The position numbers and the translations under genes were made by a program. The notes under the pieces are model-generated. The model worked only from the letters and a program-made list of their open reading frames with translations, had not been told where the DNA came from and made no database searches. A stretch of DNA of 64,000 nt from Alteraurantiacibacter aestuarii. GTDB lineage: Bacteria > Pseudomonadota > Alphaproteobacteria > Sphingomonadales > Sphingomonadaceae. This document shows, one piece after another, positions 2,192-19,936 of this stretch. The stretch's first letter is position 1; each line of letters starts with the position of its first letter. The stretch is taken from assembly GCF_009827405.1 (NCBI RefSeq), contig NZ_WTYY01000004.1, forward strand, positions 1 through 64,000, written 5' to 3'.

Positions 2192-3607
2192 TCAGGCGGA
2201 CTGCCAACGGCTTTTCATCCGATAGATTGTTGATGCGCTGACGCCCAGTTCGCCCGCAGCCTTGGGGATGCTGCCGCCAGCCCTGTGGATTGCGGCCTCA
2301 ACGGCCAGCCGCTCGATATCGGCGAGCGTGGTGGGACCGCTTTGGGCAAAGTCCGGGGAGGCGGTTGCAGCGGGGTCCGCCATGAATGCAGCCGGTGCAG
2401 GGTCAGCGGCTCTGGCTGGTGCGGGATGGGTGCGTTCGAGCGGCAGATCGTCCAGGCCGATAACCGGTCCGGCGCTCATCACCACTGCACGCCGGATAAG
2501 GTTTTGCAGTTCGCGGACATTGCCAGGCCACTGGCGCTGTTCCAGCGCAGCGCTCACTTGCGCGGAAAGCGGCTCGAAGTGCTTGGCTTCCTCCTCCCCG
2601 AAGCGTTCAAGGAAACTCTGCGCTATCAGGCTGACATCGCCGGGCCGGTCCCTGAGTGGCGGCAATTCAAGCGGGATCACCGCAAGGCGATAGAACAGGT
2701 CCTCGCGAAAGCGGCCTTCGGCAACTTCGCGCGATGGATCGCGATTGGTGGCACAGATAACCCGCACGTTGACCGGTTCGGGCCGGCTTGACCCAACCGG
2801 CTGCACCATGCCGGACTGCAGGAAGCGCAGCAGTTTCACCTGCAGCGAAAGATCCATCTCGCAGATTTCGTCGAGGAAAAGCGTACCGCCATCGGCTTCG
2901 CGCGCGGCCCCCTTCCGGTCTGCAATCGCTCCGGTGAAGGAGCCTTTCACATGGCCGAACAGTTCCGATTCAAGCAGGTTTTCCGGGATCGCTCCGCAAT
3001 TGATCGCCACGAACCGCTTGCGCGCGCGCGGACCTGTCTGGTGGATCGCTTCGGCGGCCACTTCCTTGCCGGTGCCGCTTTCGCCGGTAATGAAAACCGT
3101 CGCCTTGGACGTCGCGACATTCTCGATGGCGCTATAGACTGCCTGCATGGGCGTGGATTTGCCGATGAAGCCTTGAAAGCTCTCACGGCCGACAATCCTG
3201 CTGATGACTTCGGCTTTTTCGTACAGCTTCTGGCGTTCCAGCGCATTGCGCGCGGTGGTCAGCAATCTTGGCGGGGCGATGGGCTTGACCAGGAAGTCAT
3301 AGGCGCCCAGCCGCATGGCGCTGATTGCGCGGTTGATCGATCCATCGGCGGTGACCACCACCACTGCGCTTTCCTGCGCCAATTGGGGGCGCTGTTCGAG
3401 CCAGTCCAGCCCATCGTAATCGGGCAATTGCAGGTCGAGCAGGATAGCGTCGAACGGCTTTGGCATGCTGGCAATTGCACTGTCTGCTTCGGCGCCGTTC
3501 TCCACCACCACAACCGAATGGCCGGCCCCTTCTAGGATTCCGGCGTAGGTTTGTGCCAGCGAAGGGGAATCCTCTATCACCAGTATGTGCGTTGCCGGTC
3601 TGCTCAT
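2192..3607 (-). CDS. LuxO-like sigma-54-dependent response regulator (enhancer-binding protein)
   Basis: 471 residues. Receiver domain 1-120 with phospho-acceptor Asp58 (LLDLQLP) and Lys in LVKPI. AAA+ domain about 148-380 with Walker A GESGTGKE (175-182), a sigma-54 contact loop GSFTGA (222-227, Ala to Ser against canonical GAFTGA) and Walker B LFLDE. A Fis-type helix-turn-helix ends the protein (AAGELGVSASTIYRMKSRW). The AAA+ and HTH regions read like Vibrio LuxO (CATNRDP..EGRFREDL, then IPKAAGELGVSASTIYR). The start overlaps the stop of the H-NOX gene by 4 bases (ATGA), so the two are translationally coupled. LuxO-type operators and sigma-54 promoters lie in front of the neighbouring exopolysaccharide genes, so those are the inferred targets. 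Confidence 0.93.
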   Translation of the reverse strand: MSRPATHILVIEDSPSLAQTYAGILEGAGHSVVVVENGAEADSAIASMPKPFDAILLDLQLPDYDGLDWLEQRPQLAQESAVVVVTADGSINRAISAMRLGAYDFLVKPIAPPRLLTTARNALERQKLYEKAEVISRIVGRESFQGFIGKSTPMQAVYSAIENVATSKATVFITGESGTGKEVAAEAIHQTGPRARKRFVAINCGAIPENLLESELFGHVKGSFTGAIADRKGAAREADGGTLFLDEICEMDLSLQVKLLRFLQSGMVQPVGSSRPEPVNVRVICATNRDPSREVAEGRFREDLFYRLAVIPLELPPLRDRPGDVSLIAQSFLERFGEEEAKHFEPLSAQVSAALEQRQWPGNVRELQNLIRRAVVMSAGPVIGLDDLPLERTHPAPARAADPAPAAFMADPAATASPDFAQSGPTTLADIERLAVEAAIHRAGGSIPKAAGELGVSASTIYRMKSRWQSA

Positions 3608-4140
3608 AGGGCTTTGACCAGCCGGAATTCGGCCCGATCGCCAAGTTTGCTGGATTCCCAGGTCAGTTCGCGTTCATCGCCGTAATGCTCGATGCTCTGC
3701 CTGATCAGGCCATAGGCGATATGCGCCAGCGGCCGGTGCGACTGATAGGATACCACCAGAACACCGTTTTCACGCCTGGTCGTCACGCTGGGCGGCTTGG
3801 CCCCGGGATAGAGGATGCGGACTTCCTCGTGAATGTGCGGACCGACATGATCGAGCAATTCGTCGACAGACGTATAAAGCTTCATGATATCCGGGAACAG
3901 GACGGTGAAGCGCTGGAAGAGATAGGAGCCATATTTCTGGCACAGTTCATCGACCGGCACGCCCGACTTTACGGATGCGATCGAGACCATTTTCAGCGCA
4001 TTGGTCGCCGGATAGCTGCCGACTGAGGTGAAGGCTCCGCCATCGGGCAAGTCCGCTTCCACCAGCACCTCGTCGGCGAAAACCAGTCCGAATCCCTCTT
4101 CCATGAAGTTAACGAGTTCGGTGAAGATGATGCCCTTCAT
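3604..4140 (-). CDS. hnoX: H-NOX (heme-nitric oxide/oxygen binding) sensor protein
   Basis: 178 residues, a stand-alone H-NOX domain. It begins MKGIIFTEL, the usual family start. His104, in IHEEVRILYP, fits the proximal heme ligand (H followed eight residues later by P). The heme-propionate signature Y-x-S-x-R is present as YQSHR (132-136). The family binds NO, and in some cases O2 or CO, through ferrous heme in the cytoplasm and controls a partner kinase or cyclase. Here the gene is coupled by ATGA to a LuxO-like activator, with no kinase gene between them; the hybrid kinase at the far end of the locus is the likely partner (inference). The ATG at 4140 is supported by an AAGGGAC ribosome-binding site. 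A LuxO-type operator sits directly upstream. Confidence 0.93.
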   Translation of the reverse strand: MKGIIFTELVNFMEEGFGLVFADEVLVEADLPDGGAFTSVGSYPATNALKMVSIASVKSGVPVDELCQKYGSYLFQRFTVLFPDIMKLYTSVDELLDHVGPHIHEEVRILYPGAKPPSVTTRRENGVLVVSYQSHRPLAHIAYGLIRQSIEHYGDERELTWESSKLGDRAEFRLVKAL

Positions 4141-4152
4141 TTCTTGTCCCTT

Positions 4153-4167
4153 TTTGCGAAATGCAAA
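4153..4167. promoter_or_regulatory. LuxO-type operator next to the H-NOX start
   Basis: TTTGCGAAATGCAAA, a dyad of two 6-bp halves around a 3-bp spacer. Its core matches 12 of 13 positions of the LuxO consensus TTGCA-W3-TGCAA. It lies 13-27 bases upstream of the H-NOX ATG, touching the ribosome-binding site, a position that suggests autorepression rather than activation. Confidence 0.72.
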
Positions 4168-4256
4168 TCTGCGTCCGGGCAACTAAGCATATTACGTGCC
4201 AAAATGCGAAGATCGGGCGGGTAGTACTGCAAATCCCCAATTGATCGCCCGCAGTC

Positions 4257-4314
4257 GTTGCATATTGCAGCAAATGCTTTGCAAAATGCAAACAGGCGCT
4301 TTGCAGAATGCGAA
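4257..4314. promoter_or_regulatory. Array of three LuxO-type operators upstream of the EPS export operon
   Basis: Three dyads: 4257-4271 GTTGCATATTGCAGC, 4278-4292 TTTGCAAAATGCAAA (perfect palindrome, 13/13 core match) and 4300-4314 TTTGCAGAATGCGAA. Their centres are 21 and 22 bp apart, two helical turns, so they face the same side of the DNA. The last centre is 61 bp upstream of the -24 GG of the sigma-54 promoter, a normal enhancer distance. Confidence 0.8.
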
Positions 4315-4364
4315 TTTGCGGCGGTATCTGCGCCAAAATCGCTGCAATCCCGTCCAATCGCCAG

Positions 4365-4381
4365 TTGGCACGGTCCTTGAA
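4365..4381 (+). promoter_or_regulatory. Sigma-54 (-24/-12) promoter of the EPS export operon
   Basis: TTGGCACGGTCCTTGAA fits YTGGCACG-N4-TTGCW except for one base at the -12 element (GA for GC). The GG and GA doublets are correctly spaced. Transcription would begin near 4392, about 24 bases before the first ATG. Confidence 0.85.
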
Positions 4382-4415
4382 ACGTCTCCGGCAACTGTTT
4401 CCGGAGTCCCATCAC

Positions 4416-5594: not shown

Positions 5595-7000
5595 TGGCTT
5601 CCACGCCCCGGCCCCGGCGCCTTGTCCGATTGTGGTTTGTCATTCGTGACGGACTGCCCTCCATCCACCGCTATCGCCGCTATATCATGGCAATCGCGCC
5701 AGCCCTCCTGCTGGTCTGGGGCATAACTGCGGCCTATCTGGTTCTTGCGCCTGTTCGCTTCAGCAGTTCGATGACCCTGATCCTTCCGGGGTCCGGTGTT
5801 GGCGGATCGATGAATCTGGATTCGCTTGGTCAGGCAAGTTCGGTCACCGCATCGGCCTTTTCCAGCACCACACTCAGCCCGACCGAGAATTACAAGCGCC
5901 TGCTGATGGCTGACACGACCCGCCGCCGGGCCGCCGGCCTGTTGGGTGAAGATGGCGGGGCATTTCCCGAGCCATCCATCAAACTGCTGGATCAAACGAA
6001 TCTGATCGAAGTGAAGGTGACAGGTGAGAGTCCCGAGCATGCCCGGGCGCGCGGCGAGGCTTTGCGCAATGCGTTCCTCGCCATCCTCGATGACCTGCGC
6101 GAGAACGAGGCGCAAACGCGTGAAAGCGCCGATCGTCAGCATATCTCCGAGCTTGAGGGCAAGGTTCAGGAGGCCCAGCTGGCCCTGCTGGACTTTCAGG
6201 GGCGCACTGGCCTGGTAAGTCTTGAGCAGTTCAATGGCCGCATCGGCGCGCTGGACGGTCTGCGCGGGCTTGAAAGAAACGCACGGGCCGATCGCGCTCG
6301 TCTTGCAGCAATTCGCGGGCGGCTTGGTCAGGTTCTGCAGATCACCCCGGACAATGTTCGCCGGGCCCTGCAACTCAAGGCCGATCCTGTCTTCCGCTCA
6401 CTGCTGGATCGGTATGCCAGCATCAATACCGACGCGAGCGAAGCCAGCGCTACGCTGGGCAGCGCCCACGCCGTGCGTGAGGAACTGGAGGCCGAGCGCA
6501 ATGCCTTGCGCGGACAGATTGTCGCACGCGGCAGCTCGGTTGCCGGATTGCGGGCCGATGCGTTGCTCGCTTTCGCCGATCTGTCCGTCAGCGAAGGGCG
6601 TGAACGGATGTTTGAATCGCTCATCTCCGCCGAGGGGATGAATGCCGGCGCCAATGCGATGCTGGCGGAGATACGCGGCCAGATCGACGAGCAGGCGGCG
6701 CAGTCCGGGCCGCTGGTCGCGCAGGCAAGCGAACTGGTTGAACTGCTGCGGGCACACCGGGTGGCCGAAGCGGTCTTTTCCTCCGCCCTGGCGCGGCTCG
6801 ATACCAACAAGTCCGATCCCTTCGCCTCTTACCCGCTGGTCCAGACCTTCGAGGAACCGTCCCTGCCCACGTCCAGGGCAACCCCCTCGCTGCTGATCGC
6901 ACTCGCCGCCGCTGTGGCTGCGTCCTTCTTCATTCTCATGGGATTTGCCCTCGCATGGCTACGCCAACCGATCCTGCGCAAGCTGCTGCCGAACGTCTGA
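5594..7000 (+). CDS. Wzz-type polysaccharide chain-length / co-polymerase protein
   Basis: 468 residues with a transmembrane helix near each end (about 30-50 and 430-455) enclosing a long periplasmic part rich in heptad-like helices, the layout of Wzz/Wzc co-polymerases. There is no C-terminal tyrosine-kinase (BY-kinase) module, and none elsewhere in the window. Start: the ATG at 5594 overlaps the previous stop (TGATG); a GTG one codon earlier is possible. It probably bridges the polymerase to the Wza channel and sets polymer length. Confidence 0.85.
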   Translation: MASTPRPRRLVRLWFVIRDGLPSIHRYRRYIMAIAPALLLVWGITAAYLVLAPVRFSSSMTLILPGSGVGGSMNLDSLGQASSVTASAFSSTTLSPTENYKRLLMADTTRRRAAGLLGEDGGAFPEPSIKLLDQTNLIEVKVTGESPEHARARGEALRNAFLAILDDLRENEAQTRESADRQHISELEGKVQEAQLALLDFQGRTGLVSLEQFNGRIGALDGLRGLERNARADRARLAAIRGRLGQVLQITPDNVRRALQLKADPVFRSLLDRYASINTDASEASATLGSAHAVREELEAERNALRGQIVARGSSVAGLRADALLAFADLSVSEGRERMFESLISAEGMNAGANAMLAEIRGQIDEQAAQSGPLVAQASELVELLRAHRVAEAVFSSALARLDTNKSDPFASYPLVQTFEEPSLPTSRATPSLLIALAAAVAASFFILMGFALAWLRQPILRKLLPNV

Positions 7001-8238
7001 TAGCAGGCACTATCGGCGCGACCTGGGCGCTGTGGCTGGTTGGCGGTCTGTATATCGCCGGGCCGGTCCTCGGCTGGAGCCTGGCCGCGCTGGCCGCGTG
7101 GAAGCTCTATGCCGCGCCAGCCTTGCCGGCTGCACAAAGACCGGCTCCGCTGGGACCGATCATCTGGACATTCGTGCTGGCAATGGCGGCGATGGAGATC
7201 ATCCTGCTTGTGGGCCACACAACCAATGACCTTGGCATTGGCCAGACAATCAAGTCTTCCGTCGGCTGGGCTAAGGGCTGGGCCCTGATCGGCCTGTTTC
7301 CGCTGGCAGGATCGGTTCTCAATCCACGGCCAGAGGTGATCTGCCGCGCGGTTTGCAGGCTGGGCAGGCAAACACTTTTAATCTTGCCGCTGTTCCTTGT
7401 GGCACCGTTTGTCGGACTTCCCGAGACACTGTGGGTCTCGCCGCTCAAGATCATTGGCGGTTCCGGACCGGAATATTTCGCGGCTACCCTCTACACGATT
7501 GAACCGGGCGCCGGGACCGCACGCTGGCAGTTTTTTGCTCCGTGGTCGCCGGCAGCCGGGATGATCGCGCTGGTCCATGCTGTTTGCGCTGCCGAGGAGA
7601 GGGATCTGCGCTGGAAGATCACCGGCCTTGCCGCCGCCTTGCTGATCGCCCTGCTTTCACAATCCCGCCTGGCTCTGGTGGCGTTGGTGGTCATCTGGCC
7701 ACTGAGCTTCGGGATTTCCCGGCTGGGCAAGGCGTGGCTGTGGTGGGCAGCAGCGCCGGTTGTGCTGGGTCTTGGATTGCTGGCGCCGAGCCTGGTTGCA
7801 CTGGCCGAACAGGCGGCCTCGGACTTTTCCAGTGCCCGTGCGGACAGCTCGCGCGTTCGCGAGATACTTGGCCGCATCGCTATCGAACGTTGGCAAACCG
7901 AAGCGCCGTGGTTCGGCCACGGGATAGTCGAACAAGGCCCGCATCTGGTTGAATTCATGCCGATCGGCAGCCACCACAGCTGGTATGGGCTGCTGTTCGT
8001 CAAAGGCACGATGGGCCTGCTGGCGCTGGCGATTCCGCTGATCATGGCGCTGGCTGCGATGGCGTGGCTGGCGGTTCGCGATCCTCTGGGCCGTATCGGA
8101 CTATCCATGGTCCTGGTCATGTGTCTCTACAGCTTTGGAGAGAATCTGGAGATACTGGCTTATCTGTACTGGCCGGCGCTGGTGGTCATCGGCATTGCCG
8201 CACGCCGCGCCGTGGAGCTGCGCGCAAGCCAGAGGTGA
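6955..8238 (+). CDS. Wzy-like polysaccharide polymerase / O-antigen ligase-family membrane protein
   Basis: 427 residues, almost entirely hydrophobic helices. The large loop and following helix (SSRVREILGRIAIERWQTEAPWFGHGI, then HHSWYGLLFVKGTMGL) match the O-antigen ligase/polymerase (Wzy_C) pattern. It overlaps the preceding gene by 46 bases in another frame. Family members join polyprenyl-linked repeat units in the periplasm. Ligase and polymerase functions cannot be told apart by sequence, but the flippase and co-polymerase nearby favour polymerase. Confidence 0.82.
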   Translation: MATPTDPAQAAAERLIAGTIGATWALWLVGGLYIAGPVLGWSLAALAAWKLYAAPALPAAQRPAPLGPIIWTFVLAMAAMEIILLVGHTTNDLGIGQTIKSSVGWAKGWALIGLFPLAGSVLNPRPEVICRAVCRLGRQTLLILPLFLVAPFVGLPETLWVSPLKIIGGSGPEYFAATLYTIEPGAGTARWQFFAPWSPAAGMIALVHAVCAAEERDLRWKITGLAAALLIALLSQSRLALVALVVIWPLSFGISRLGKAWLWWAAAPVVLGLGLLAPSLVALAEQAASDFSSARADSSRVREILGRIAIERWQTEAPWFGHGIVEQGPHLVEFMPIGSHHSWYGLLFVKGTMGLLALAIPLIMALAAMAWLAVRDPLGRIGLSMVLVMCLYSFGENLEILAYLYWPALVVIGIAARRAVELRASQR

Positions 8239-8321
8239 ACGGCGCTGCGGCCCCATTCCCGTTCCGCACATGCTTCAGGCGCCTCGCCTGTGGCCGCGGC
8301 TGGCTGCATCCTGACATGACA

Positions 8322-8356
8322 ATGCCCCGGTCGCCCTTGGCAGGACGCCGGGGCAT
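8322..8356. terminator. Possible bidirectional terminator hairpin between convergent EPS operons
   Basis: Inverted repeat ATGCCCCGG (8322-8330) and CCGGGGCAT (8348-8356) in the gap between two converging genes. There is no T-run on either side, so intrinsic termination is uncertain. Confidence 0.4.
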
Positions 8357-8401
8357 CTGCCTGGGGAGCGAAGGGGGAGCGCTCCAGCAGGCATTGTCCG
8401 G

Positions 8402-9457
8402 TCAGGCTGATATGGCGAGCGTGCCGGACAGGCTTTCTGACCGGGACTTCCTGCCCGCCAGTGCCTTGCCCGCCCGGTGAAACAGCGCCTGCCATGCCTT
8501 GATGCGGGAGAATTCGGCGCCGGCCATGGACATGCGGGCGGCGACCGACATTTCCTTCAGCTGGGCGGTGCTCAGCCCGGCAAGCGCGCTGGCCAGCATG
8601 GCCGGGTCGCTGCAATCAACTACAATGCCTGCGCGGCCCACCTGTTCGGGAAGGCCATCGGCCTGCGACACGATCACCGGACGCCCGGCCATGCGCGCCT
8701 CCGCAGCCACCTGGCCAAAGGCTTCGCAGCGAGAGGGAACGACCACGACATCGCAGCGGGCATAAAAGCTGGCCACATCTTCGATACGGCCAGCGAACGC
8801 GATATTGGCCATGTCGCCTGCTGCCTTGCGCAAGGCCTGCTCCTGATCGCCAAATCCGCCAATCACCAGTTCGAAACGTGATGCAGGCAAAGCCTTCATG
8901 GCCTCAATCAGCACGTCGAAGCCCTTCACATGGTCAAAGCGGCCGATGGCGCCCAGCCTGATCGGCTGGCCTTGAGAGAATTTCGGACCGGGCAGCTTGT
9001 CGAGGCCCTGGCTGCCGCTCCACGGATGGAGCACTTTCAGCTTCACGGGGTCGACCGCCTCGATTGCGCGGAGCCATCCGGCCTGACCGTTGGATACCGC
9101 AACAACCTCGTCATACATGCGGTAGGCCAGTTTCAGCATAAGCCGGAAACGGGCTTGTGACCTGACCGTCCGGGCCTCCCAGTTTCCGGTATAGGAATGC
9201 TCTATATGGATCAGCCGGGCATGCGGATTGCGCAGCCGCAGCGATGCCAGAAACGGCAGGCTGGACCAGCTGGGCGGGAAATGCGTGACGATGACATGGG
9301 CATTCAGGCGAGGTGCCATTCTGCCGCGCGGATTGACGGGCCGGACACGGCTATCGACCATGCGGGTCAGATCCGGATGATCGTAGATACGCAGACCCTT
9401 GACCACCCCGCCCATGGCGAAATCATCGTTCAGGTGAACGCAGCGCAGCCGGGTCAT
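8402..9457 (-). CDS. Glycosyltransferase, GT-B fold (GT4-like), EPS assembly
   Basis: 351 residues. The C-terminal half carries the GT4 signature: LGAIGRFDHVKGFDVLIEAM, then CDVVVVPSRCEAFGQVAAEARMAGRPVI, including the E-x7-E type region. It would transfer a sugar from a nucleotide donor to the lipid-linked repeat unit on the cytoplasmic side. The ATG at 9457 overlaps the stop of the upstream gene by 4 bases (ATGA) and is preferred over a start 13 codons further out. It is last in a four-gene minus-strand operon. Confidence 0.9.
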   Translation of the reverse strand: MTRLRCVHLNDDFAMGGVVKGLRIYDHPDLTRMVDSRVRPVNPRGRMAPRLNAHVIVTHFPPSWSSLPFLASLRLRNPHARLIHIEHSYTGNWEARTVRSQARFRLMLKLAYRMYDEVVAVSNGQAGWLRAIEAVDPVKLKVLHPWSGSQGLDKLPGPKFSQGQPIRLGAIGRFDHVKGFDVLIEAMKALPASRFELVIGGFGDQEQALRKAAGDMANIAFAGRIEDVASFYARCDVVVVPSRCEAFGQVAAEARMAGRPVIVSQADGLPEQVGRAGIVVDCSDPAMLASALAGLSTAQLKEMSVAARMSMAGAEFSRIKAWQALFHRAGKALAGRKSRSESLSGTLAISA

Positions 9458-10449
9458 GCCGCAGCCGCCTTGCCCAGGCGGTTCCGCAGCAGACATGCCA
9501 TCATCGTTCCGGGCAGCAGCGCGCTGGCCAGGGCGGCCCCCGCCGTTCCAAGCGACTTGACCGGTTCTTCCATGAAAATCGCCGGGTAACGGGCAATCGC
9601 CTGCGATGTCAGCGCGCGGGCAAAGGCATAATCGCCCAGCTGTATGGCGCGGCGCGCCAGATAGCGCAGCTGATATGCCGCGGCGGCGTTGCCATGGCGG
9701 GCGATCAGCGCTGGCGCATAGGTTCGGGCCTTGTCGATCGCCCGCTCCCAGGTTTCAAACTGGCGCACGATATTGGCCGAAAGTCCGCCACCGATAATGC
9801 GATAATCGGTCAGCAGCCCACCAATGCCCTCGAAGCGGCAATTATGCCCAGCGGACATTCGCAGCCACATTTCGATATCCTCGGATTGGCGGAAACTCTC
9901 GTCGAACCAGCAGGTGCGTGCGGGTTCATCGGGATGGGCAAAACCCACATCGTCCAGCGCACTGCGACGTATCACCGCGGCCGAGCCATTGCCCACCGGG
10001 TTGCGCTTGAGGATATGCGCTGCATCAACAGCTTCGAGCCTTGGCCGCATGGCAACCGCGAGCGGGCGGCCATCGGCGTCAATCAGGCGTGAACCGGCAT
10101 AGCTGACGGCCACATCGGGATTGCTGCGCAGGTGAATCGCATGCAGCATGAGCTTTTCGGGCGCCCAGCGATCATCTGAATCGAGCAGTGCGATATAGGT
10201 GCCGGTTGCATGGGCAATCCCGGTGTTGCGCGCCCCTGCCAGGCCGCGGTTTTTCTGCCGGATGATGCGGATGCGCGGATCGTCGAAACTGCGCACGATA
10301 TCCATGCTGCCATCCTGCCCGCCATCATCGACGACGATCAGTTCGAGGCAATCGTGGCTCTGGTCCAGAACCGAGCGGATCGCCTCTGCAACATAGAGCT
10401 CGACATTATAGACAGGCATGATGACGGAAATTTTTTCAGGGCTGGTCAC
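9454..10449 (-). CDS. Family 2 glycosyltransferase, EPS assembly
   Basis: 331 residues. A GT2 (GT-A) domain occupies the first 220 residues: ISVIMPVYNVE, VVDDGGQDGS, KNRGLAGARNTGI and the DSDD metal-binding motif. It uses an NDP-sugar to extend the lipid-linked unit. Starts at GTG 10449, with an AAGGAG site 9-10 bases upstream. It shares about the same layout as the next gene upstream, suggesting an old duplication. Confidence 0.9.
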   Translation of the reverse strand: MTSPEKISVIMPVYNVELYVAEAIRSVLDQSHDCLELIVVDDGGQDGSMDIVRSFDDPRIRIIRQKNRGLAGARNTGIAHATGTYIALLDSDDRWAPEKLMLHAIHLRSNPDVAVSYAGSRLIDADGRPLAVAMRPRLEAVDAAHILKRNPVGNGSAAVIRRSALDDVGFAHPDEPARTCWFDESFRQSEDIEMWLRMSAGHNCRFEGIGGLLTDYRIIGGGLSANIVRQFETWERAIDKARTYAPALIARHGNAAAAYQLRYLARRAIQLGDYAFARALTSQAIARYPAIFMEEPVKSLGTAGAALASALLPGTMMACLLRNRLGKAAAA

Positions 10450-10473
10450 GGCTATTTCTCCTTGGAGCAGGGG

Positions 10474-11418
10474 TCAGGCGAAGATGCGCTGGCGCAGCGT
10501 CATCGGGATTGCAGGAGCGGTGATGGCTGCAAGCAGAGTGGAGCCTCCGCGTTTCAGATCAGACAGGAAGGCGCGGGGAGACAGGGCTATTCCGCGCATC
10601 GCGTAGTAGCGCGCTTCAGCTGGTGGATTGCCGCTGCGCAGGGACCGGCGCGCCAGATACCGGCAATATATCGCCTCGGCAGAAGCTGAGTCCGCATCGC
10701 TTGCGTGCAGTTCCACCACCCTGCGCCAGCCGGCATACATGGCGCCAAGATTGACCGAGAGACCGCCGGGCGACAGGCGATAGCCAACAAGCAATTCGTC
10801 AATCCCGCGGGCACGCTCACCCAGTGCGACGGCGCGGGCAAGCCATTCCTGGTCTTCCGCATAATCCATGCCGACATCGAATGCGCCGATACGATCGAAC
10901 GCTTCCCTTGTGGTGACGAGATTGGAGGCTGTGCAGACCGGATTCTCGGAGATGATCTGCTGCATGGTCAGGTCGCCGCGGGGCACGCTCGACATGGTGC
11001 GGCTGCGCGGCCGATCATGGGCAGTGGCTTCGAGAAAGGCGATCCTGGCGTAGCTGATGGCCAGCGTGCGATCGGCTTCATGTGCCGCACGGTGCCATGC
11101 CAGCTTGGCCGGATGCCACAGATCGTCGGCATCGCAGAAAGCCATCAACCTGCCGCTGGCCAGCTGGAGACCGTGATTGCGCGCGGCGGAAACGCCGGCA
11201 TTCTGCTGTGCCACCAGCCTGATGCGCGGATCGCGGCCTGCCTGCCGCAACATCCGCAGCAGGCTGTCATCGGTTGAGCCGTCATCGATCAGAATCAGTT
11301 CGAAATCTTCGTCGTCCTGCTCACGGATAGAGGCGATGGTCGCCTCGATCGTATCCTGCGCGTTGTAGACAGGCACGATGACCGAGAAATGCGGACGAGT
11401 TTGTGCGTTGCGGTTCAT
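10474..11418 (-). CDS. Family 2 glycosyltransferase, EPS assembly
   Basis: 314 residues. GT2 motifs: FSVIVPVYNAQDTIEATI, LIDDGSTDDS, QQNAGVSAARNHG and CDADD. Paralogue of the neighbouring GT2 gene, with a similar C-terminal helical tail. The ATG at 11418 overlaps the flippase stop by 4 bases (ATGA), so it was taken as the start although the frame is open further out. Confidence 0.9.
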   Translation of the reverse strand: MNRNAQTRPHFSVIVPVYNAQDTIEATIASIREQDDEDFELILIDDGSTDDSLLRMLRQAGRDPRIRLVAQQNAGVSAARNHGLQLASGRLMAFCDADDLWHPAKLAWHRAAHEADRTLAISYARIAFLEATAHDRPRSRTMSSVPRGDLTMQQIISENPVCTASNLVTTREAFDRIGAFDVGMDYAEDQEWLARAVALGERARGIDELLVGYRLSPGGLSVNLGAMYAGWRRVVELHASDADSASAEAIYCRYLARRSLRSGNPPAEARYYAMRGIALSPRAFLSDLKRGGSTLLAAITAPAIPMTLRQRIFA

Positions 11419-12707
11419 ATGACCACTCCCTTTGGTGTCTGGTTGTTGATGGCGGACAGGCCGAGTCCGCGAAAAAGGACGAATGCGGTGATCGGCAGCT
11501 GCACTGCCCAAAGCGCGAGGACATAGGCCCAGGCCGCTCCGTGAAGGCCGATGGTGCAGCCCAGAGCCAGCGCTCCCAGCGCGGCGATGCAGACCACGAT
11601 GGAGATCATCGCATCGCGATCAGCCCCGCCGGTGGCGCGCAGCCATGCGGTGGACACCGATGCGGTTATCGCCGGTATCGCGGCCAGGCAGAGTATTGCG
11701 ACCAGCGGGGCAATATCGGCCCATTGCTCGCCAAACAGGATCGGCACGTAGATATCGGCCAGCAGGACCTGGGCGATCACAACCGGTGTGAAAAGGCCCA
11801 GACCCAGCATAATCGAATGCTTCAGCCGGCGCATGCGATCCAGCGCCGATCTGGCGGCGCACAGATAGGGAAACAGCACGATCGACAAGGCGCTGACAAA
11901 ACTGCTGGTGATGCCAAGTCCGGCGTTGAACGCGAAGAAATAGAATCCCAGAGCCTCCGTGCCGAGCATGGCGCCGACAATGATCTTGTCGAGCTGCTGG
12001 CGCGCCACATTGGTAAATTCAGTGACCAGAACCCCCGCACTCAAGCGGGTGAATTCGTGCAAGGGCGCCGCAGCCACTCCGACAATAGGAGACCAGCATT
12101 GGGCGCGCCGGACCAGAACAAGCCATACCGGAGCGGTCAGCAGCTTGGGCAGGACAAGCGCCCAGGCCGATGGCCAGACCAGCGCGAGTGCCAGGCACAG
12201 GAAATGGTCAGCTGTCGTTTGCGTGGCGGCGATCCGGGCGGTTGTTGCCAGCCGTCCGCTGCGCATCAACAGGAAGACCTGCACCAGGCCGGCCGGCATC
12301 AGCGCGTAAACGCCGGTAAGCATGGCCAGCATTGCTGCGATCTCTGCCTGCCCGAAGACACGCCACATGATTGCAGCGCAAGCCAGCTGAACCAGCGCGA
12401 CGCCGCCGCACCACAGATAGAACAGCCGGTGTGCGGCGTTGCAGATCGATGCGAGCTCGGCATCGGTGGCGGCGATGATCCTTTGGCCAATGCCGCTGTT
12501 TGCGAGCACCCGAACAAATTCGAACAGGGCAAGCGCAAGGGCGGCAATGCCGATCTGGGCGGGCGCAATCTGACGGGCGATCACGATGATCGTGAACACC
12601 CGCAACACGCGCGTGCCAGCCTCTGCCAGGCCATAGGCAAGAAGGCCGTGCAAGACGGGTCTCAGCCCCTCTGGCAACAGTCTTTCAAGTCTGACGATGA
12701 GCGGCAT
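11415..12707 (-). CDS. Wzx-type polysaccharide flippase (oligosaccharide translocase)
   Basis: 430 residues with about 12 predicted membrane helices and the MATE/MOP-like polysaccharide synthesis pattern (LAYGLAEAGTRVLRVFTIIVIARQIAP near the N-terminus). The family flips undecaprenyl-linked repeat units to the periplasm. Start ATG 12707 has AGGAA 7 bases upstream. A TTG 17 codons earlier lies inside the sigma-54 promoter and is rejected. First gene of the minus-strand glycosyltransferase operon. Confidence 0.88.
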   Translation of the reverse strand: MPLIVRLERLLPEGLRPVLHGLLAYGLAEAGTRVLRVFTIIVIARQIAPAQIGIAALALALFEFVRVLANSGIGQRIIAATDAELASICNAAHRLFYLWCGGVALVQLACAAIMWRVFGQAEIAAMLAMLTGVYALMPAGLVQVFLLMRSGRLATTARIAATQTTADHFLCLALALVWPSAWALVLPKLLTAPVWLVLVRRAQCWSPIVGVAAAPLHEFTRLSAGVLVTEFTNVARQQLDKIIVGAMLGTEALGFYFFAFNAGLGITSSFVSALSIVLFPYLCAARSALDRMRRLKHSIMLGLGLFTPVVIAQVLLADIYVPILFGEQWADIAPLVAILCLAAIPAITASVSTAWLRATGGADRDAMISIVVCIAALGALALGCTIGLHGAAWAYVLALWAVQLPITAFVLFRGLGLSAINNQTPKGVVI

Positions 12708-12741
12708 TGGCGTGTTCCTGGCATGGTGTCGCCAAACACTG

Positions 12742-12758
12742 TTCAATATCCGTGCCAA
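12742..12758 (-). promoter_or_regulatory. Sigma-54 promoter of the flippase/glycosyltransferase operon
   Basis: On the minus strand the sequence is TTGGCACGGATATTGAA. It has the same TTGGCACG and TTGAA elements, and the same spacing, as the promoter at 4365. Predicted start of transcription is near 12731, about 24 bases before the flippase ATG. Confidence 0.85.
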
Positions 12759-12809
12759 ACGCGGTTTCCCGCCATTGTTGCCCGATTTCGGCAGTCAGGA
12801 TCGCGCCGA

Positions 12810-12867
12810 TTTGCATAATGGCCAGCAGCACTTCGCAATTCGCAATTCAGAAATTGCATTTTGCGAA
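12810..12867. promoter_or_regulatory. Array of three LuxO-type operators between two divergent sigma-54 promoters
   Basis: Dyads at 12810-12824 (left half TTTGCA intact, right half weak), 12832-12846 TTCGCAATTCGCAAT and 12853-12867 ATTGCATTTTGCGAA (12/13 core match). Centres are 22 and 21 bp apart, the same geometry as at 4257-4314. The first centre is 62 bp from the -24 GG of the leftward promoter and the last is 85 bp from that of the rightward one, so a single array could serve both. Confidence 0.75.
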
Positions 12868-12941
12868 AATGGACTGTGCCAAGACGCCCGCCGGGCGGTT
12901 AGAAACTAACTAAAAGACGGAAATATAGCGGTTTTCTAAAA

Positions 12942-12958
12942 CTGGCACGATCTCTGCG
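12942..12958 (+). promoter_or_regulatory. Sigma-54 promoter of the priming glycosyltransferase gene
   Basis: CTGGCACGATCTCTGCG matches YTGGCACG-N4-TTGCW well, with GG (12944-12945) and GC (12956-12957) correctly spaced. Predicted transcription start is near 12969, just before the ribosome-binding site CGGAGG. Confidence 0.87.
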
Positions 12959-12990
12959 CCTGTCCTCCCAACTCAAGCGGAGGATATGCA

Positions 12991-14421
12991 ATGTACCAGG
13001 ATTTCAATTTCGACAGCGCTCTGATGCAGGATTACGAGCGTGGGCCGCGTTCATCGGGCCGTGTGGCTGCGGCGGCAAGTGCGGTCAGGCTGTTCAACCT
13101 CGACCTTGTCGACGCCGATCGAAACGAGACCGCGCAAAAGCTGGTGGATCTTGCCGCCAAGGGTCGCCGCGCGACGATCGGTTTCATCAATGCGCACTGC
13201 GTCAATGTGGCTGCCCGCGACAGCAGGTATCGCGCTGCCCTGAAGTCCTGCGATCACCTTCTGCCTGATGGATCGGGAATGCGCCTTGCCGCCAGACTTG
13301 CCGGGACGAGCTATCGCGACAATCTCAACGGCACGGATCTTTTCCCGCTCATCTGCGAGGAGGCCGCCCGCAAGGGAGTGTCGATCTACCTGCTCGGCGG
13401 CGGGGAAGGCATTGCCGAAGCGGCCGGACGGGCGATGCAGCGCCGCTATCCCGATCTCAACATTGCCGGAACGCAAAACGGCTATTTCGAACAGTATGAA
13501 ACCGCGCGCGTCATCGCCGATATCAACGCCAGCGGAGCCGACATGGTCTTTGTCGGATTTGGCGTGCCGTTGCAGGAATGCTGGCTGGCCGATCACGGCG
13601 CCAGCATTGATGCCCCTGTGCAGCTCTCGGTCGGTGGATTGTTCGATTATTATTCGGGCCGAATTCCGCGGGCGCCCATGCCGATCCGCAAAGTCGGTTG
13701 CGAGTGGATCTGGCGTCTGGCGCAGGAACCGCGGCGCCTTGCCGGTCGCTATATCGCCGGGAATGGTATTTTCATCATGCATGCCCTGGCACATGCGTTT
13801 GCCATCCGCAGCGGGATCGATTGCGGTGCGGCTCTCAAGCGGGCCGGAGACCTGATCGCCGTTACGCTGGGTCTTGCGCTGCTCGCCCCGCTGTTCGCGG
13901 CCATTGCCCTGGCCATCAGGCTTGAGGATGGTGGCCCGGTGTTCTTCAGCCAGACCCGGATCGGCAAGCGCGGCAGGCCGTTCAAGGTGCTGAAATTCCG
14001 CAGTATGGTGGTCAATGCCGAGGCAATTCGCGCCCGCCTGCTGGCGCAGTCAGACAGGGATTCGATCTGTTTCAAGATGAAGAGAGATCCCCGGATCACG
14101 CGGGTCGGGTCCCTGCTGCGCCGCACGTCGCTGGATGAATTGCCACAGCTGTTCAATGTGTTGCTGGGGGATATGTCGCTGGTTGGTCCGCGTCCTGCCC
14201 TGCCGCATGAGGTGACAGCCTATTGGCAGCGCGCGCTGCGGCGGCTTGATACCCGCCCAGGTATCACCTGCATCTGGCAGGTATCGGGACGGGCAGAAAT
14301 TCCCTTCAGCCAGCAGGTGGAGATGGATATCGATTATGTCGAAAGCCAGGGCATGATGCGCGACCTGGGGCTGCTGCTGCGCACGATCCCGGCGGTGGTT
14401 ACCGCGCGCGGCGCCTACTGA
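12991..14421 (+). CDS. Fused WecB/TagA/CpsF (GT26) glycosyltransferase and polyprenyl-phosphate sugar phosphotransferase
   Basis: 476 residues with two enzymes in one chain. Residues about 28-215 are a GT26 domain (GFINAHCVNVAARD, LPDGSGMRLAARL, ADMVFVGFGVPLQECWL). Residues about 280-476 are a bacterial sugar transferase catalytic domain (FFSQTRIGKRGRPFKVLKFRSM, LLRRTSLDELPQLFNVL, GDMSLVGPRPALP). The latter transfers a sugar-1-phosphate to undecaprenyl phosphate and so starts the repeat unit; GT26 adds another sugar. The phosphotransferase half has one clear membrane-anchoring helix at its front. Start ATG 12991 has CGGAGG upstream. Confidence 0.88.
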   Translation: MYQDFNFDSALMQDYERGPRSSGRVAAAASAVRLFNLDLVDADRNETAQKLVDLAAKGRRATIGFINAHCVNVAARDSRYRAALKSCDHLLPDGSGMRLAARLAGTSYRDNLNGTDLFPLICEEAARKGVSIYLLGGGEGIAEAAGRAMQRRYPDLNIAGTQNGYFEQYETARVIADINASGADMVFVGFGVPLQECWLADHGASIDAPVQLSVGGLFDYYSGRIPRAPMPIRKVGCEWIWRLAQEPRRLAGRYIAGNGIFIMHALAHAFAIRSGIDCGAALKRAGDLIAVTLGLALLAPLFAAIALAIRLEDGGPVFFSQTRIGKRGRPFKVLKFRSMVVNAEAIRARLLAQSDRDSICFKMKRDPRITRVGSLLRRTSLDELPQLFNVLLGDMSLVGPRPALPHEVTAYWQRALRRLDTRPGITCIWQVSGRAEIPFSQQVEMDIDYVESQGMMRDLGLLLRTIPAVVTARGAY

Positions 14422-14436
14422 TCCATTGCCGGCGGT

Positions 14437-16560
14437 TCACTCGACGCTGAAACGGTGACGGATATCGGCAATCGTATCCGTCACCACCTGATCGAGCACC
14501 CCGGCATCGATTTGCGCACCTTCGGCCAGCAGCGAAGCCAGCCTCATCGCGCCGATATTGCCGCCAACGCCGCGCAGGCTGTGCGCCTCCCGCCGGGCCT
14601 TCCCGTGGTCGCCAGACCGGATCGCGGCAGACAGCTTCTTGCCCAGACTGGCCATATCGCGCAGCGACAGTGCCAGCACCGTGTTGCGCCGATCTTCGGG
14701 CAATGCATCGAACAATTGCCGCGTGGCCTCTTCATCAATCAACGGGATGGTGGCCGGGTCGGCGGCGGTGCCCGCGCTCTGGCGCAACACTTCCTCCATG
14801 CGCGCGGTCAGGGACGCCAGATCGACGGGTTTGGAGACCAGCGCGTTCATTCCCGCTTCCAGCAGCTCATCATGGTCCGATTGCATGACATGCGCGGTCA
14901 CTCCAACCACGGGAACCTGACCTTTCGCGCCGGGCAATTGCCTGATCAGGCGTGTTGCTTCCTTGCCATCCAGCAGCGGCATGTTCACGTCCATCAGGAT
15001 AATATCGAAATCACCATTCTGAACAGCGACAATCGCTTCCCGGCCATCTTCGGCAAACTCGAACGTGCACCCTGTGAGTTCCAGCATGGAGGCCAGTACT
15101 TGCCGATTGGTGGCGATGTCTTCTGCGATCAGCACATGTGCGGCCAGCTTGACGGGCGGACTGGCAACCGGCTGCCTGGGCACATGGCCGGTCCTGTCGA
15201 AAGAGAGGATGCGAACCAGCGGAATCTCGAACCAGAAACGACTTCCCTTGCCGACTTCGCTTACAACGCCGATCGTGCCTTCCATTGCCCTGACCAGCCG
15301 CTTGCAGATCGCCAGGCCCAGGCCTGCGCTATATCCGGACCCTGCGGTCATCGTCCGCAGCCGGGTGAAATCGGTGAACAGCCTTCGCTGCAGTTCCTCC
15401 CTGATTCCGGGGCCGTCATCCTCGACCTCGATCCGCAGGGTTGCGCCCTTGTTCTGTGCGATGACCTGGACCGTGCCGCCGGGTGTATATTTCAGTGCAT
15501 TGGACACGAGATTGTCGATCAATTGCCGGAAACGGGTCGGATCGACGAGTACGGTTTTGGGTATGTCCGGATCGATGCGGCTGGTAAGCACGACATTCGG
15601 ATTGGGATTGGCCACCTGCCAGAACTCCACGATATTGCCCAGGGCCATATGCAGGTCCACCGCTTCGGGTTGCAGCTCGATCTTGCCGGTTTCGGCGCGC
15701 ACGAATTCGATAATGTCATTCAGCAGGATGTTGAGCTGGAGGCCGGAACTGCGCGCTAGGTTGAGCTTGTGGCGCTGCGCATCATCCAGATCGCTGTGAG
15801 ACAAGGTTTCGAGCAGTCCCAGAATACCATTCATCGGTGTGCGGATGTCATGGCTCATCATGGCAAGGAACTGGGACTTCGACCGATTGGCTTCCTCGGC
15901 TTCGGCATGGGACAGGGCCAGCTCGTCTGAAAGCTTGCTCAGGGTCTTGACCCGCCGCCCGGCAATAAGGCTGAGTGCGCGTGCATGCCTTTCCGTGTGG
16001 CGCTGCAAGGTGATGTCCTGAACGGTACCAAAGACTGATTGAAAACGGCCCCGATCATCAGTTTCCCGGCGCAACGTCCACCTGATCCAGCGCACCTCCT
16101 GATCCACCGGCCTTATGATGCGGTGTTCGTAGATGTGATCAATGTCGGTTGGCATTTCAGTGTAGAATTTTATCTCGTCAGTAGCCACGCGCTTGCGGTC
16201 CAGCCGATGAATTCTGGTCTGCAGCAGTTCGGGATTCAGGTCGCAACCGGAAGGCAGGCCGAGGATCTGGCGCAATTCGGGAGAGTAGATGAACTTCCCC
16301 CCGCGAGGCCTGAATACGGTGGCAATCCGGGCGGTGCGCTGGGCTGCCAGCAATTCCCGGTTCCCCAGCTCCAGACGGCTTTGCAGCACTTCTTCCCGTT
16401 CGAGCAGTTCACGATTGATTCTGTCGAGTTCGCGCGCACGCCTTTCCAGCAGCGCTTCTGCGTCAAGCCGCGCTTTTTCGGAGCGTTGCAACCTGCGCTT
16501 GAGCAGGTTCACTTGCTCTTCGGGCGTCAGTTTGCCCAGTGCTTCTTCGATACTCACCAC
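14437..16560 (-). CDS. Hybrid sensor histidine kinase with PAS, receiver and HPt domains
   Basis: 707 residues, no membrane segment. N-terminal coiled coil (about 1-75), PAS/PAC domain (80-185), second coiled coil, HisKA with His237 (MMSHDIRTPMNG), HATPase (VEDDGPGIREEL and GLGLAICKRLV), receiver (about 475-590; acceptor Asp in LMDVNMP) and a C-terminal HPt (REAHSLRGVGGN). This soluble His-Asp-His relay could pass phosphate to the LuxO-like regulator, taking the place of Vibrio LuxU. The coiled-coil/PAS front and its place at the end of the H-NOX/EPS locus make it a candidate H-NOX partner; that pairing is inference. Confidence 0.9.
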   Translation of the reverse strand: MVSIEEALGKLTPEEQVNLLKRRLQRSEKARLDAEALLERRARELDRINRELLEREEVLQSRLELGNRELLAAQRTARIATVFRPRGGKFIYSPELRQILGLPSGCDLNPELLQTRIHRLDRKRVATDEIKFYTEMPTDIDHIYEHRIIRPVDQEVRWIRWTLRRETDDRGRFQSVFGTVQDITLQRHTERHARALSLIAGRRVKTLSKLSDELALSHAEAEEANRSKSQFLAMMSHDIRTPMNGILGLLETLSHSDLDDAQRHKLNLARSSGLQLNILLNDIIEFVRAETGKIELQPEAVDLHMALGNIVEFWQVANPNPNVVLTSRIDPDIPKTVLVDPTRFRQLIDNLVSNALKYTPGGTVQVIAQNKGATLRIEVEDDGPGIREELQRRLFTDFTRLRTMTAGSGYSAGLGLAICKRLVRAMEGTIGVVSEVGKGSRFWFEIPLVRILSFDRTGHVPRQPVASPPVKLAAHVLIAEDIATNRQVLASMLELTGCTFEFAEDGREAIVAVQNGDFDIILMDVNMPLLDGKEATRLIRQLPGAKGQVPVVGVTAHVMQSDHDELLEAGMNALVSKPVDLASLTARMEEVLRQSAGTAADPATIPLIDEEATRQLFDALPEDRRNTVLALSLRDMASLGKKLSAAIRSGDHGKARREAHSLRGVGGNIGAMRLASLLAEGAQIDAGVLDQVVTDTIADIRHRFSVE

Positions 16561-16787: not shown

Positions 16788-19463
16788 TTATTCGCGCCGG
16801 GGTGCTCCTTCATTCTGCGCGGCTGAACTGACCTGAACCGACCTGCTGACGTCGAGGCTGGCGCCTGCATCGAAAGCGCCACCGGGACCGGGGCCGACCG
16901 TGCTCACGCCGGCACCAACCCTGCCGATGGAAACGCTCTGGCCGGCATTGTTGTCGACCACAAGCTTGACCCACAAGCTGTTGTCATCCCTGAACCAGGA
17001 GGTCTCACCGGCAGCGCGCAGCGCGGCCAGGCTGGCTTGCTCTGCACCCCCGGCAGTGGTGCTGAATCCGGGCAGTTCAAAGATTACCGAGGAGCCGTTG
17101 TCCATTTCCCGCAGGGACAGTGACAGGGCTTCCCTGCTGGTCTCCACCCTGACGTCGGCTCCGCTGCGGATCGTGGTCTGCCCGGTGTACTCCCACCGCC
17201 TGCCGTTACGGCTGAGCATGACCGGATCGGTGATGGGACCACCGCCAAATCCGAAATTGCCGCCCACGCCAAAGTGGCCGAAGTCACCGCGGCACACAGC
17301 AGCGCCCCAGTCCGGCCTGATGTCACAGGCTTCGTCATCGGACGCGATGCCGTTGTCGAGCACGATATAGGAATTGGGCACACCGCCGACAGAGCCATCC
17401 CGGTCATGGATCGCCGCGCCCCTCCAGGCATTGGCACGCCCCAGATCGGAGGCCCAGCTGCGCACATATGGCGGGAAACTGACCGGCTTGGAATTGACGA
17501 ACTGTGCGCCCTCAATGGCGTTTTCGGTGCTCATCCCGAAGCTGGTATACATCAGGTAGGAGATCGCTCCCGCATCGCGCGTATCGTTGGGCATGAAGTT
17601 GACGAAAGTGGTGTTCACCACATCGTGCCGCATGTCGTAATACTCGTAACCGCGGATCGGGAAATCCGTGAGGTCGTTCGGCATGCTGCGACCATAGGCG
17701 ATTTCCTGCGGCGTGCTGGGATTTCCGATATTGCCGGATTCACCCACGAACACCGAATCGACCACCTTTGACGTATAGGCGGCCTGACCAACTGCGGCAG
17801 CCGCGTGGGTAAAGCCGACAGCATTGTCGGCCACTCTCAGGTTGGTGAACAGATGCAGTTCACCGCGACCCCATACGCCGCCGTGCCGGTTCTTGTAGCT
17901 GGTGAAATTCTCGAAGTGCGACACCAGCTTCTCGCTATTCGTGTCGGCCGGATCGGCATGGGCGAAATGGTAGTTGCTGCCACCGACACTGAAGGTGTTG
18001 TCGGGATTGGGACCACGGTCGAACATGAACCCGTCGTAATTGGAGTGGGCGGTGTTGCCGCTGAACTCGCGCACCGCAGTGCGGCGCGGCCATGTGTTGG
18101 CACTGGTCTCCGTACCTTCAAACTGGCCCGTAGGATGAACCGGCAAGGCGAACCAGAAACCTATCTGGTCGGAACCTGCAGCCACGTTGTCACGATAGAT
18201 ATTGTCCGGATTGGTGATCCAGAACGTTGACGCCGTGTTGTCCGAGGCAATCAGGACATGGTCGGAGCTCTGACCAGCGGCACTCGATGCAAAAGTCGAT
18301 GTATCGGCCGATCCTGCCGGTCCCAGGTTGGTCGGCTGACAGGGCAGGGTGGGGTGACACTTGGTCATGATCCCCAGATTGTGGACGAACTGGTTGCCCG
18401 TCTCCACCGCGTCTTCCAGGAAGAAGCAGTGACCCACGGTGTTGAAGGTGACGTTGTTTTCCACCCGCACATTATTGGTGCCATGCACCGTTACGCAGCG
18501 GCTGTAGGTATCGTGGATTGCGGAGTTCTGGATGTACTGCCCCTGGCCTTCGCCAACGAGGTGCCAGTGCATCGGGTAGCGGGCCAGATGCATGTTCTGC
18601 CCCATGCGGTTCAGCTCCACGCCGGAGACGCGCACGGTCGATGCGAGCATCGCCATGATGTGCCCGCCGAAGTAGTTGTTGTCCGCGTCTTCCGAAGCCT
18701 GGATCACGATATTGCGCGTCAGCAGGCCCACTTCGCCGCGCTCGTCCACGCCGAAGGTGATTTCACCGAAATGCATGTATTCCAGCGCGCGATCGAGCGT
18801 GATCACGTTCCCGTTGACGGCGGCGATGGTTCGCCTCTCTGCCTGACGCGGGTTGAAGTCGGTTGATGCCAGCACGATCTGATCGCCCTGTCGCCAGTCA
18901 CTGGCATCCAGCACTTCGATTTCGGCGCTGCCGGCCTGCGCCGTTCTGGCAAGCTTGGTCCAGGTGTGCTCCCGGTTGCCATGCAGGTTCAGCGTGCCGC
19001 CCATGATCAGAATGCCGCGGTCCCCCATGGTGTTGATGTCTTCATCGGGGACATTGTCTGTCAGGGTAATGGTCGCATTATGCGTGAAGGGCCGCTCCTC
19101 GCTGCCGATCTGCAATTCGCCCCGGCGCAAATAGATCCACTCGGTCTCCAGCGCGATATCGTGATCGTCCGCAAAGCGCAGCTTGCCGTCGATGGTAAGG
19201 CTGCGCAGCGCAGGCGGGCTGACGTCCAGGACAACTTCCATGTCCCGGCCAATCATGACCTCTTCGCCTGCGCCCGGCACCTTGCCGTCCGGCCATGCGG
19301 CAGGATCGGACCACTGCACTGTCCGGACCACCGCAGGAGGCGCATCAGTGCCCGCGTCCATATGCTGGTGGGCTTCCTGAGCATCAGCCTGTGCACCCAT
19401 GCCAAGCAAAACGGACACAGGAAGAAGCAAAGACACAAGGAGCAGGCGAGATTGCATGCGCAT
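16788..19463 (-). CDS. Secreted G8-domain protein related to CEMIP/TMEM2 hyaluronidases
   Basis: 891 residues. A signal peptide (1-28, ending GAQADA) is followed by a G8 domain (about 48-170: W..PAAWPDGKVPGAGEEV) and a long right-handed beta-helix. Several stretches read like animal CEMIP/TMEM2: MHWHLVGEG, AIHDTYSRCVTVHGTNN, GHCFFLEDAVE, VGESGNIG, HDRDGSVGGVPNSY. Those proteins depolymerise hyaluronan. Here the substrate may be an acidic polysaccharide, possibly the neighbouring EPS (inference). Start ATG 19463 has a GAGGGG site; a second in-frame ATG follows two codons later. It is transcribed toward the EPS locus but has its own upstream gap. Confidence 0.8.
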   Translation of the reverse strand: MRMQSRLLLVSLLLPVSVLLGMGAQADAQEAHQHMDAGTDAPPAVVRTVQWSDPAAWPDGKVPGAGEEVMIGRDMEVVLDVSPPALRSLTIDGKLRFADDHDIALETEWIYLRRGELQIGSEERPFTHNATITLTDNVPDEDINTMGDRGILIMGGTLNLHGNREHTWTKLARTAQAGSAEIEVLDASDWRQGDQIVLASTDFNPRQAERRTIAAVNGNVITLDRALEYMHFGEITFGVDERGEVGLLTRNIVIQASEDADNNYFGGHIMAMLASTVRVSGVELNRMGQNMHLARYPMHWHLVGEGQGQYIQNSAIHDTYSRCVTVHGTNNVRVENNVTFNTVGHCFFLEDAVETGNQFVHNLGIMTKCHPTLPCQPTNLGPAGSADTSTFASSAAGQSSDHVLIASDNTASTFWITNPDNIYRDNVAAGSDQIGFWFALPVHPTGQFEGTETSANTWPRRTAVREFSGNTAHSNYDGFMFDRGPNPDNTFSVGGSNYHFAHADPADTNSEKLVSHFENFTSYKNRHGGVWGRGELHLFTNLRVADNAVGFTHAAAAVGQAAYTSKVVDSVFVGESGNIGNPSTPQEIAYGRSMPNDLTDFPIRGYEYYDMRHDVVNTTFVNFMPNDTRDAGAISYLMYTSFGMSTENAIEGAQFVNSKPVSFPPYVRSWASDLGRANAWRGAAIHDRDGSVGGVPNSYIVLDNGIASDDEACDIRPDWGAAVCRGDFGHFGVGGNFGFGGGPITDPVMLSRNGRRWEYTGQTTIRSGADVRVETSREALSLSLREMDNGSSVIFELPGFSTTAGGAEQASLAALRAAGETSWFRDDNSLWVKLVVDNNAGQSVSIGRVGAGVSTVGPGPGGAFDAGASLDVSRSVQVSSAAQNEGAPRRE

Positions 19464-19733: not shown

Positions 19734-19809
19734 TGGTGCCGCTTAGGTGACTCGAACACCTGACCCCATCATTACGAATGATGTGCTCTACCAACTGAGC
19801 TAAAGCGGC
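19734..19809 (-). tRNA. tRNA-Thr(CGU)
   Basis: Minus-strand cloverleaf of 76 bases with 7-bp acceptor stem GCCGCTT/AAGCGGC, D-arm TAGCTCAGTTGGTAGAGCA, anticodon loop TTCGTAA, T-arm GTTCGAGTC and an encoded CCA end. Confidence 0.97.
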
Positions 19810-19862
19810 ACTGCACTCGCGCCATTATCGCTGGCCTTGGGCAAGCGCAATGGGCGAAAATA

Positions 19863-19936
19863 TGGAGGCCCGAGCCGGAATCGAACCGGCGTGCAAGGAT
19901 TTGCAGTCCTCTGCGTAACCACTCCGCCATCGGGCC
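19863..19936 (-). tRNA. tRNA-Cys(GCA)
   Basis: Minus-strand cloverleaf of 74 bases with acceptor stem GGCCCGA/TCGGGCC, anticodon loop CTGCAAA, T-loop GTTCGATTC, discriminator U and an encoded CCA end. It lies 53 bases upstream of tRNA-Thr and is probably co-transcribed with it. Confidence 0.97.

Follow-up and report, generated by a model that had tools for sequence, protein, structure and literature searches.

The exopolysaccharide (EPS) gene cluster at 2192-16560 of the window (the whole 64-kb stretch analysed here, the first part of its contig in a 2.24-Mb genome that looks sphingomonad-like in content and is incomplete at 69.7%) carries two intergenic arrays of short dyads, each enclosed by two sigma-54-type promoters that point outward. 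With a probability of roughly 0.75, these dyads are upstream activating sites of the cluster's own LuxO/SypG-type regulator, each array looping to two promoters. Motifs, conservation, spacing, phasing and linkage can be read directly from the DNA, and it is on these that we propose the binding, the looping, the kinase and nitric oxide (NO) input and the feedback described below. Open reading frames and domain profiles define the following genes:

2192..3607, minus strand: LuxO/SypG-type sigma-54 response regulator with receiver, AAA+ and Fis-type HTH domains (Pfam Response_reg, Sigma54_activat, HTH_8)
3604..4140, minus strand: H-NOX (haem NO-binding) protein of 178 aa, the proposed sensor (PF07700, 103 bits, cut-off 25.5)
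4416-5594, plus strand: Wza-like export gene (Poly_export, 39.7 bits, cut-off 28)
5591-7000, plus strand: Wzc-like gene (EpsF, TIGR03017, match below cut-off; no Pfam match)
6955-8238, plus strand: Wzy-like gene (Wzy_C, 28.2 bits, under its cut-off of 31.7)
8402-9496, 9454-10449 and 10474-11511 (start of the last uncertain), minus strand: three glycosyltransferases (profile matches)
11415..12707, minus strand: Wzx-type flippase (PF13440, 115 bits)
12991..14421, plus strand: WecG/TagA and polyprenyl glycosylphosphotransferase fusion, the priming transferase (PF03808, 191 bits; PF02397, 213 bits)
14437..16560, minus strand: hybrid histidine kinase, HisKA-HATPase-REC-HPt, the proposed phosphate donor (domain profiles)

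These genes would make up a putative Wzx/Wzy-dependent EPS set, in which Wzx, Wza and the priming transferase score above their Pfam cut-offs and Wzy_C below. The flippase start at 12707 was set from the sequence, the reading frame being open at that point. RpoN is encoded in the genome. The joining of a WecG/TagA-type transferase and a polyprenyl glycosylphosphotransferase in a single protein is matched in 31 of the 34 related clusters described below.

The array B gap comprises 283 bp between the start codons of the flippase gene (12707) and the priming-transferase fusion gene (12991), and it contains two outward-pointing sigma-54-type promoters with three dyads in between:

12743..12757, minus strand: sigma-54-type promoter of the flippase and glycosyltransferases, TGGCACGGATATTGA, an exact match to TGGCACGNNNNTTGM
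12810-12824, 12832-12846 and 12853-12867: array B dyads, with 3, 2 and 1 mismatches to TTYGCANNNTGCRAA
12943..12957, plus strand: sigma-54-type promoter of the priming transferase, TGGCACGATCTCTGC, 1 mismatch

Motif and spacing thus bear out the divergent promoter pair and the three dyads at 12810-12867 described in the first-pass annotation. The dyad centres are 22 and 21 bp apart and lie at -85, -107 and -128 relative to the leftward start; here and throughout, transcription starts are placed from the -12 element and are not mapped. Since matches at ≤3 mismatches are common in the window, the first two dyads are not distinctive by themselves; too weak to stand alone, they are carried by spacing, register and conservation.

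The same layout recurs in the array A gap at 4141-4415, between the leftward H-NOX/LuxO-like regulator pair and the rightward EPS export operon, so the cluster carries two such arrays; that this array also sits between divergent promoters is a point absent from the earlier annotation.

4153..4167: lone dyad between the inferred H-NOX transcription start, which it closely follows, and the start codon, 1 mismatch
4187..4201, minus strand: sigma-54-type promoter of the H-NOX/regulator pair, TGGCACGTAATATGC, 1 mismatch
4257-4271 (weak, 3 mismatches), 4278-4292 and 4300-4314 (both exact): array A dyads from the motif scan
4366..4380, plus strand: sigma-54-type promoter of the EPS export operon, TGGCACGGTCCTTGA, exact

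Array A dyads are spaced by 21 and 22 bp, with centres at -84, -106 and -127 from the inferred start of the 4366 promoter. The leftward array B promoter had been described as a copy of the one at 4365 (placed here at 4366), and both are indeed among the genome's five exact matches to TGGCACGNNNNTTGM. The near-identity of their distances to the nearest dyad is likewise right, the values being 52 bp (12758-12809) and 51 bp (4315-4365) rather than the 62 and 61 bp first given. The lone dyad at 4153-4167 is possibly autorepressive, as is the case for Vibrio LuxO. The idea that such an autorepressive site is conserved was set aside as too weak, dyads near the H-NOX start occurring in 5 of 27 A gaps at ≤2 mismatches, the window's own included.

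The dyad consensus, TTYGCA-N3-TGCRAA, encloses the published Vibrio LuxO enhancer core TTGCAWWWTGCAA. In the 64-kb window, dyads at ≤1 mismatch number four, all of them within the two gaps. The promoters carry GG at -24 and a GC-type element at -12 at fixed spacing, except that two of the four in the window have GA at -12 (TTGA instead of TTGC). Taken by itself, the sigma-54 motif is weak evidence: 122 matches at ≤1 mismatch occur genome-wide versus 74 for the reversed pattern, and a loose version yields 98 matches in the window versus 105 expected, which is not above chance. Across both gaps of four genomes, 16 sigma-54 sites at ≤1 mismatch were counted against a mean of 0.22 (max 3), and 15 dyads at ≤1 mismatch, where 500 Markov-1 simulations gave a mean of 0.17 (max 2). 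As an observation on the -12 element, the flippase-side and export-side promoters (12743-12757 and 4366-4380) end in TTGA in many genomes, and the transferase-side promoter mostly ends in TGC.

Conservation of the cluster was assessed with a Wzc-like query, which located it in 33 of the 397 genomes of the family and in 21 of 96 genera. The sample consists of 34 clusters from 20 genera, namely 32 of those 33 genomes (G456 was left out as fragmented) plus G022 and G019; three B gaps are missing from the count, two at contig ends (G613, G630) and one with unmatched flippase and transferase genes (G231), and the A gap of G630 was taken as the 500 bp before Wza. The regulator is matched in 33/34 clusters, an H-NOX gene lies between regulator and Wza in 30/34, and the flippase and transferase genes are present in 31/34. 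Both promoters are found at ≤1 mismatch in 25/34 A gaps and 23/31 B gaps; both promoters (≤2 mismatches) together with a dyad (≤1) more than 55 bp upstream of each occur in 25/34 and 24/31, respectively. In the three closest genomes, 77 of 288 alignment columns (A) and 95 of 300 (B) are identical, including large parts of the dyads and promoters. The first-pass annotation had proposed aligning relatives to see whether the dyads diverge; given the conservation of both dyads and promoters across the 34 clusters, divergence is not what the relatives display. No dyad at ≤1 mismatch is found in 3/34 A gaps and 6/31 B gaps, and none at ≤2 mismatches between the promoters in 2/31 B gaps (G213, G442). 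The leftward promoter is missing at ≤2 mismatches in seven of the 34 A gaps: four have it at 3 mismatches, one at 4 mismatches only (G549) and one not at all (G526), the seventh being G630. A plasmid search with the Wzc-like protein returned only relatives of 33.5-37.6% in five records.

Beyond the cluster, the same genome holds seven dyads at ≤1 mismatch, and a sigma-54-like site lies no more than 400 bp from only one of them (L010); this locus was rejected as a further regulon member because the evidence is too weak, the -12 element of the site reading TTGG. Two strict dyads 4-9 bp apart, used as a search pattern, gave 0 matches in 396 genomes, a pattern judged too strict because it misses the window as well. 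Likewise, among the 80 loci listed in a regulator-alignment scan, mostly distant relatives, none has two dyads at ≤1 mismatch.

The dyads are also arranged in helical phase. Their centres recur relative to the four inferred starts with a period of ~10.5-11.25 bp over all gaps, with phase R values of 0.56 (A right), 0.42 (A left), 0.62 (B right) and 0.58 (B left). When each position is counted once per genus, R becomes 0.54, 0.41, 0.59 and 0.58, values reached 0, 11, 0 and 0 times in 2000 draws of a random-phase-per-genus null (same promoter order). Start-to-start distances show no clean helical period (best 11.75-13.25). A shared enhancer would be expected to show such phasing on both sides, and layout and phase would together fit one set of sites serving both promoters as a bidirectional sigma-54 enhancer. 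The shared bidirectional array of the earlier annotation thus gains probable support from conservation and phasing, although its distances were ~10 bp off. Upstream of the rightward B promoter, an IHF-like site lies on the same strand at -57/-58 with ≤2 mismatches in 17 of 29 B gaps, the next-commonest position being shared by five; the window's own -57 copy has 3 mismatches, and no IHF-like site recurs at the other three promoters.

Three other explanations were weighed against activation of both flanking promoters by the linked regulator. That the arrays reflect chance or composition is very improbable. The gaps are AT-richer (46-56% GC in the four closest genomes versus 62% for the window) and loose matches are common, but the related clusters hold 96 dyads at ≤1 mismatch in 22,135 bp of gaps (4.34/kb) versus 13 in 612,697 bp outside (0.021/kb), the reversed motif occurs 0 times in gaps and once outside, and Markov-1 shuffled gaps average 1.01 dyads (max 4 in 100) against 95 observed, one fewer than 96 because counting was there confined to the cut gaps. 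These densities are to be read in the light of the common ancestry of the clusters and of a motif and cut-offs that were settled once the sequence had been seen. Less easily dismissed, yet still unlikely, is an array that serves one promoter only, or separate dyads that serve separate promoters, with sharing reduced to proximity. Array and promoter pair are not strictly tied, as seen in six A gaps that have dyads (≤2 mismatches) despite a missing or degraded leftward promoter (G315, G347, G371, G382, G526, G549) and in G213, which retains both B promoters with no dyad between them. Against this, the gaps hold no second set of dyads, in either gap the dyads keep phase with both starts, and in G442, a single case, the absence of the B dyads goes together with that of the rightward promoter and of any good leftward one. 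The strongest form of sharing, in which the arrays are genuine two-way enhancers, both promoters of a pair are served by one regulator assembly so that phase is conserved to both sides, and array A closes a positive loop on the H-NOX/regulator pair to form an NO-gated on/off switch for EPS, is a tentative proposal that we hold to be possible rather than probable.

The remaining alternative, somewhat less probable than the one-promoter arrangement, is that the dyads bind another regulator (a sigma-54 activator or a repressor) and not the linked LuxO-like protein, which we propose as the binder. This protein (2192-3607) has LuxO as its best NCBIfam match (NF041946, 524 bits, below the equivalog cut-off of 800) and as its best PDB match (5ep0, E 2.5e-116); its sigma-54 activator domain (PF00158) scores 233 bits, and the loop reads GSFTGA in the window and GAFTGA in G019. 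The dyad motif matches the LuxO upstream activating sequence (UAS), which counts against a different binder: the core TTGCAWWWTGCAA, given alongside the SypG motif in PMC10162802, is exact at 4279-4291 and has one mismatch at 12854-12866, and 27 exact copies occur in 19/65 gaps, while the SypG UAS TTCTCANNNTGMDWN (last N omitted) is exact in 2/65, neither in the window. Linkage points the same way. Twelve genomes picked for carrying the regulator hold 21 strict dyads, of which 18 are no more than ~15 kb from the regulator gene; one of these 18 falls inside the H-NOX coding sequence (G241). Of the other three, one is in G185 and two are in G105, where one has a sigma-54-like site 94 bp away and the other none within 250 bp; the reversed motif occurs once in these genomes. 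Ten more distant regulator loci were sampled at 20 kb each (others, e.g. G050, fall outside the sample). In three of them (L048, plus L050 and L051 of a single genus), H-NOX and a hybrid kinase are close by, and the DNA immediately before H-NOX carries dyads and an exact sigma-54 site, whereas in the seven without an H-NOX match (L052-L058) dyads and a sigma-54 site never occur together: six have no dyad at ≤1 mismatch, and L052 has one dyad with no sigma-54 site in 20 kb. In L058, the kinase adjoins the regulator, with neither H-NOX nor dyads. What favours a different binder is that the HTH segments of regulators with and without nearby dyads look alike, so that binding is deduced from linkage and not from residues, and that G630 has dyads beside Wza with neither regulator nor H-NOX matched in 4.7 kb upstream. 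As a side observation, L048, L050 and L051 are loci of relatives lacking the window's EPS arrangement, and in L050 and L051 an extra dyad and sigma-54 site lie beside a sugar-transferase match.

Under activation by the linked regulator, the protein bound at one array would loop to RNA polymerase-sigma-54 on either side. Array B would thereby induce the flippase and glycosyltransferases together with the priming transferase, and array A the export and polymerase genes together with the H-NOX/regulator pair; array A would give positive feedback on that pair. The hybrid kinase nearby would supply phosphate via its HPt domain, and H-NOX would gate that kinase in response to NO. The sensor assignment draws on a PF07700 match with the haem His and the YxSxR motif aligned with solved H-NOX proteins; the roles of these residues and of the distal Tyr are presumably as in that family, and an Ile at the distal Tyr position would make the protein NO-selective. 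In two of the 34 clusters (G154, G549), the H-NOX match lies beside the hybrid kinase and not the regulator, which suggests that the two may work as a pair. Matches to the kinase occur in 30/34 clusters, many of them partial and, once the three closest genomes are set apart, 29-43% identical, so its role appears less conserved than the rest and is the least certain step.

The nearest known counterpart is the syp polysaccharide locus of Vibrio fischeri, where, according to passages of PMC12369376, HnoX restrains HahK, and HahK acts via SypF (and LuxU) and SypG. Both systems combine H-NOX, a hybrid kinase, an HPt relay and a sigma-54 response regulator (HnoX-HahK-SypF-SypG in V. fischeri) with a polysaccharide locus that has sigma-54 promoters and enhancer sites (parts of PMC12369376 and PMC10804989). 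Unlike in syp, the arrays here are common to paired divergent promoters, the sites are nearer the LuxO UAS than SypG's TTCTCANNNTGMDWN, the H-NOX and regulator genes are themselves under an array, and a single hybrid kinase with its HPt domain lies inside the cluster. The qrr promoters activated by Vibrio LuxO share the dyad core, sigma-54 and a LuxO-type activator (passages of PMC10162802), whereas the proposed targets here are EPS genes and not small RNAs. The first-pass remark that shared bidirectional sigma-54 enhancers are uncommon was somewhat overstated, since passages of PMC3844500 and PMC8743547 document that a single activator, FhlA, governs two divergent sigma-54 promoters within the hycA/hypA gap of enterobacteria. 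The present gaps resemble hycA/hypA in the promoter pair and differ in activator and genes. Another divergent sigma-54 precedent is Caulobacter flaN/flbG, which has FlbD sites.

A general link of sigma-54 to exopolysaccharide genes has been proposed (passages of PMC3162934). Apparently new is the combination of two conserved and symmetric arrays within a single EPS cluster and a LuxO-like regulator, linked to H-NOX, whose own gene lies under one of these arrays. Searches of open-licence PMC papers gave no such NO-linked EPS/biofilm circuit for this group, and a prior description elsewhere is possible. The arrangement predicts an NO-linked switch for EPS/biofilm genes in the group, and if true, this would be an NO-gated switch of a whole EPS pathway in many genera of one alphaproteobacterial family. 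The 34 clusters and their 65 gaps are natural replicates in which to test whether a pair of divergent promoters can be served by one sigma-54 enhancer, and the same set could show how helical phase constrains such sharing.

The EPS cluster is adjoined at 16788-19463 by a gene whose 891-aa product has G8 and CEMIP beta-helix domains. Two tRNA genes (19737-19936), the only RNA matches in an Rfam search of window positions 1-24000, lie between this gene and a GGDEF gene at 22509-23504.
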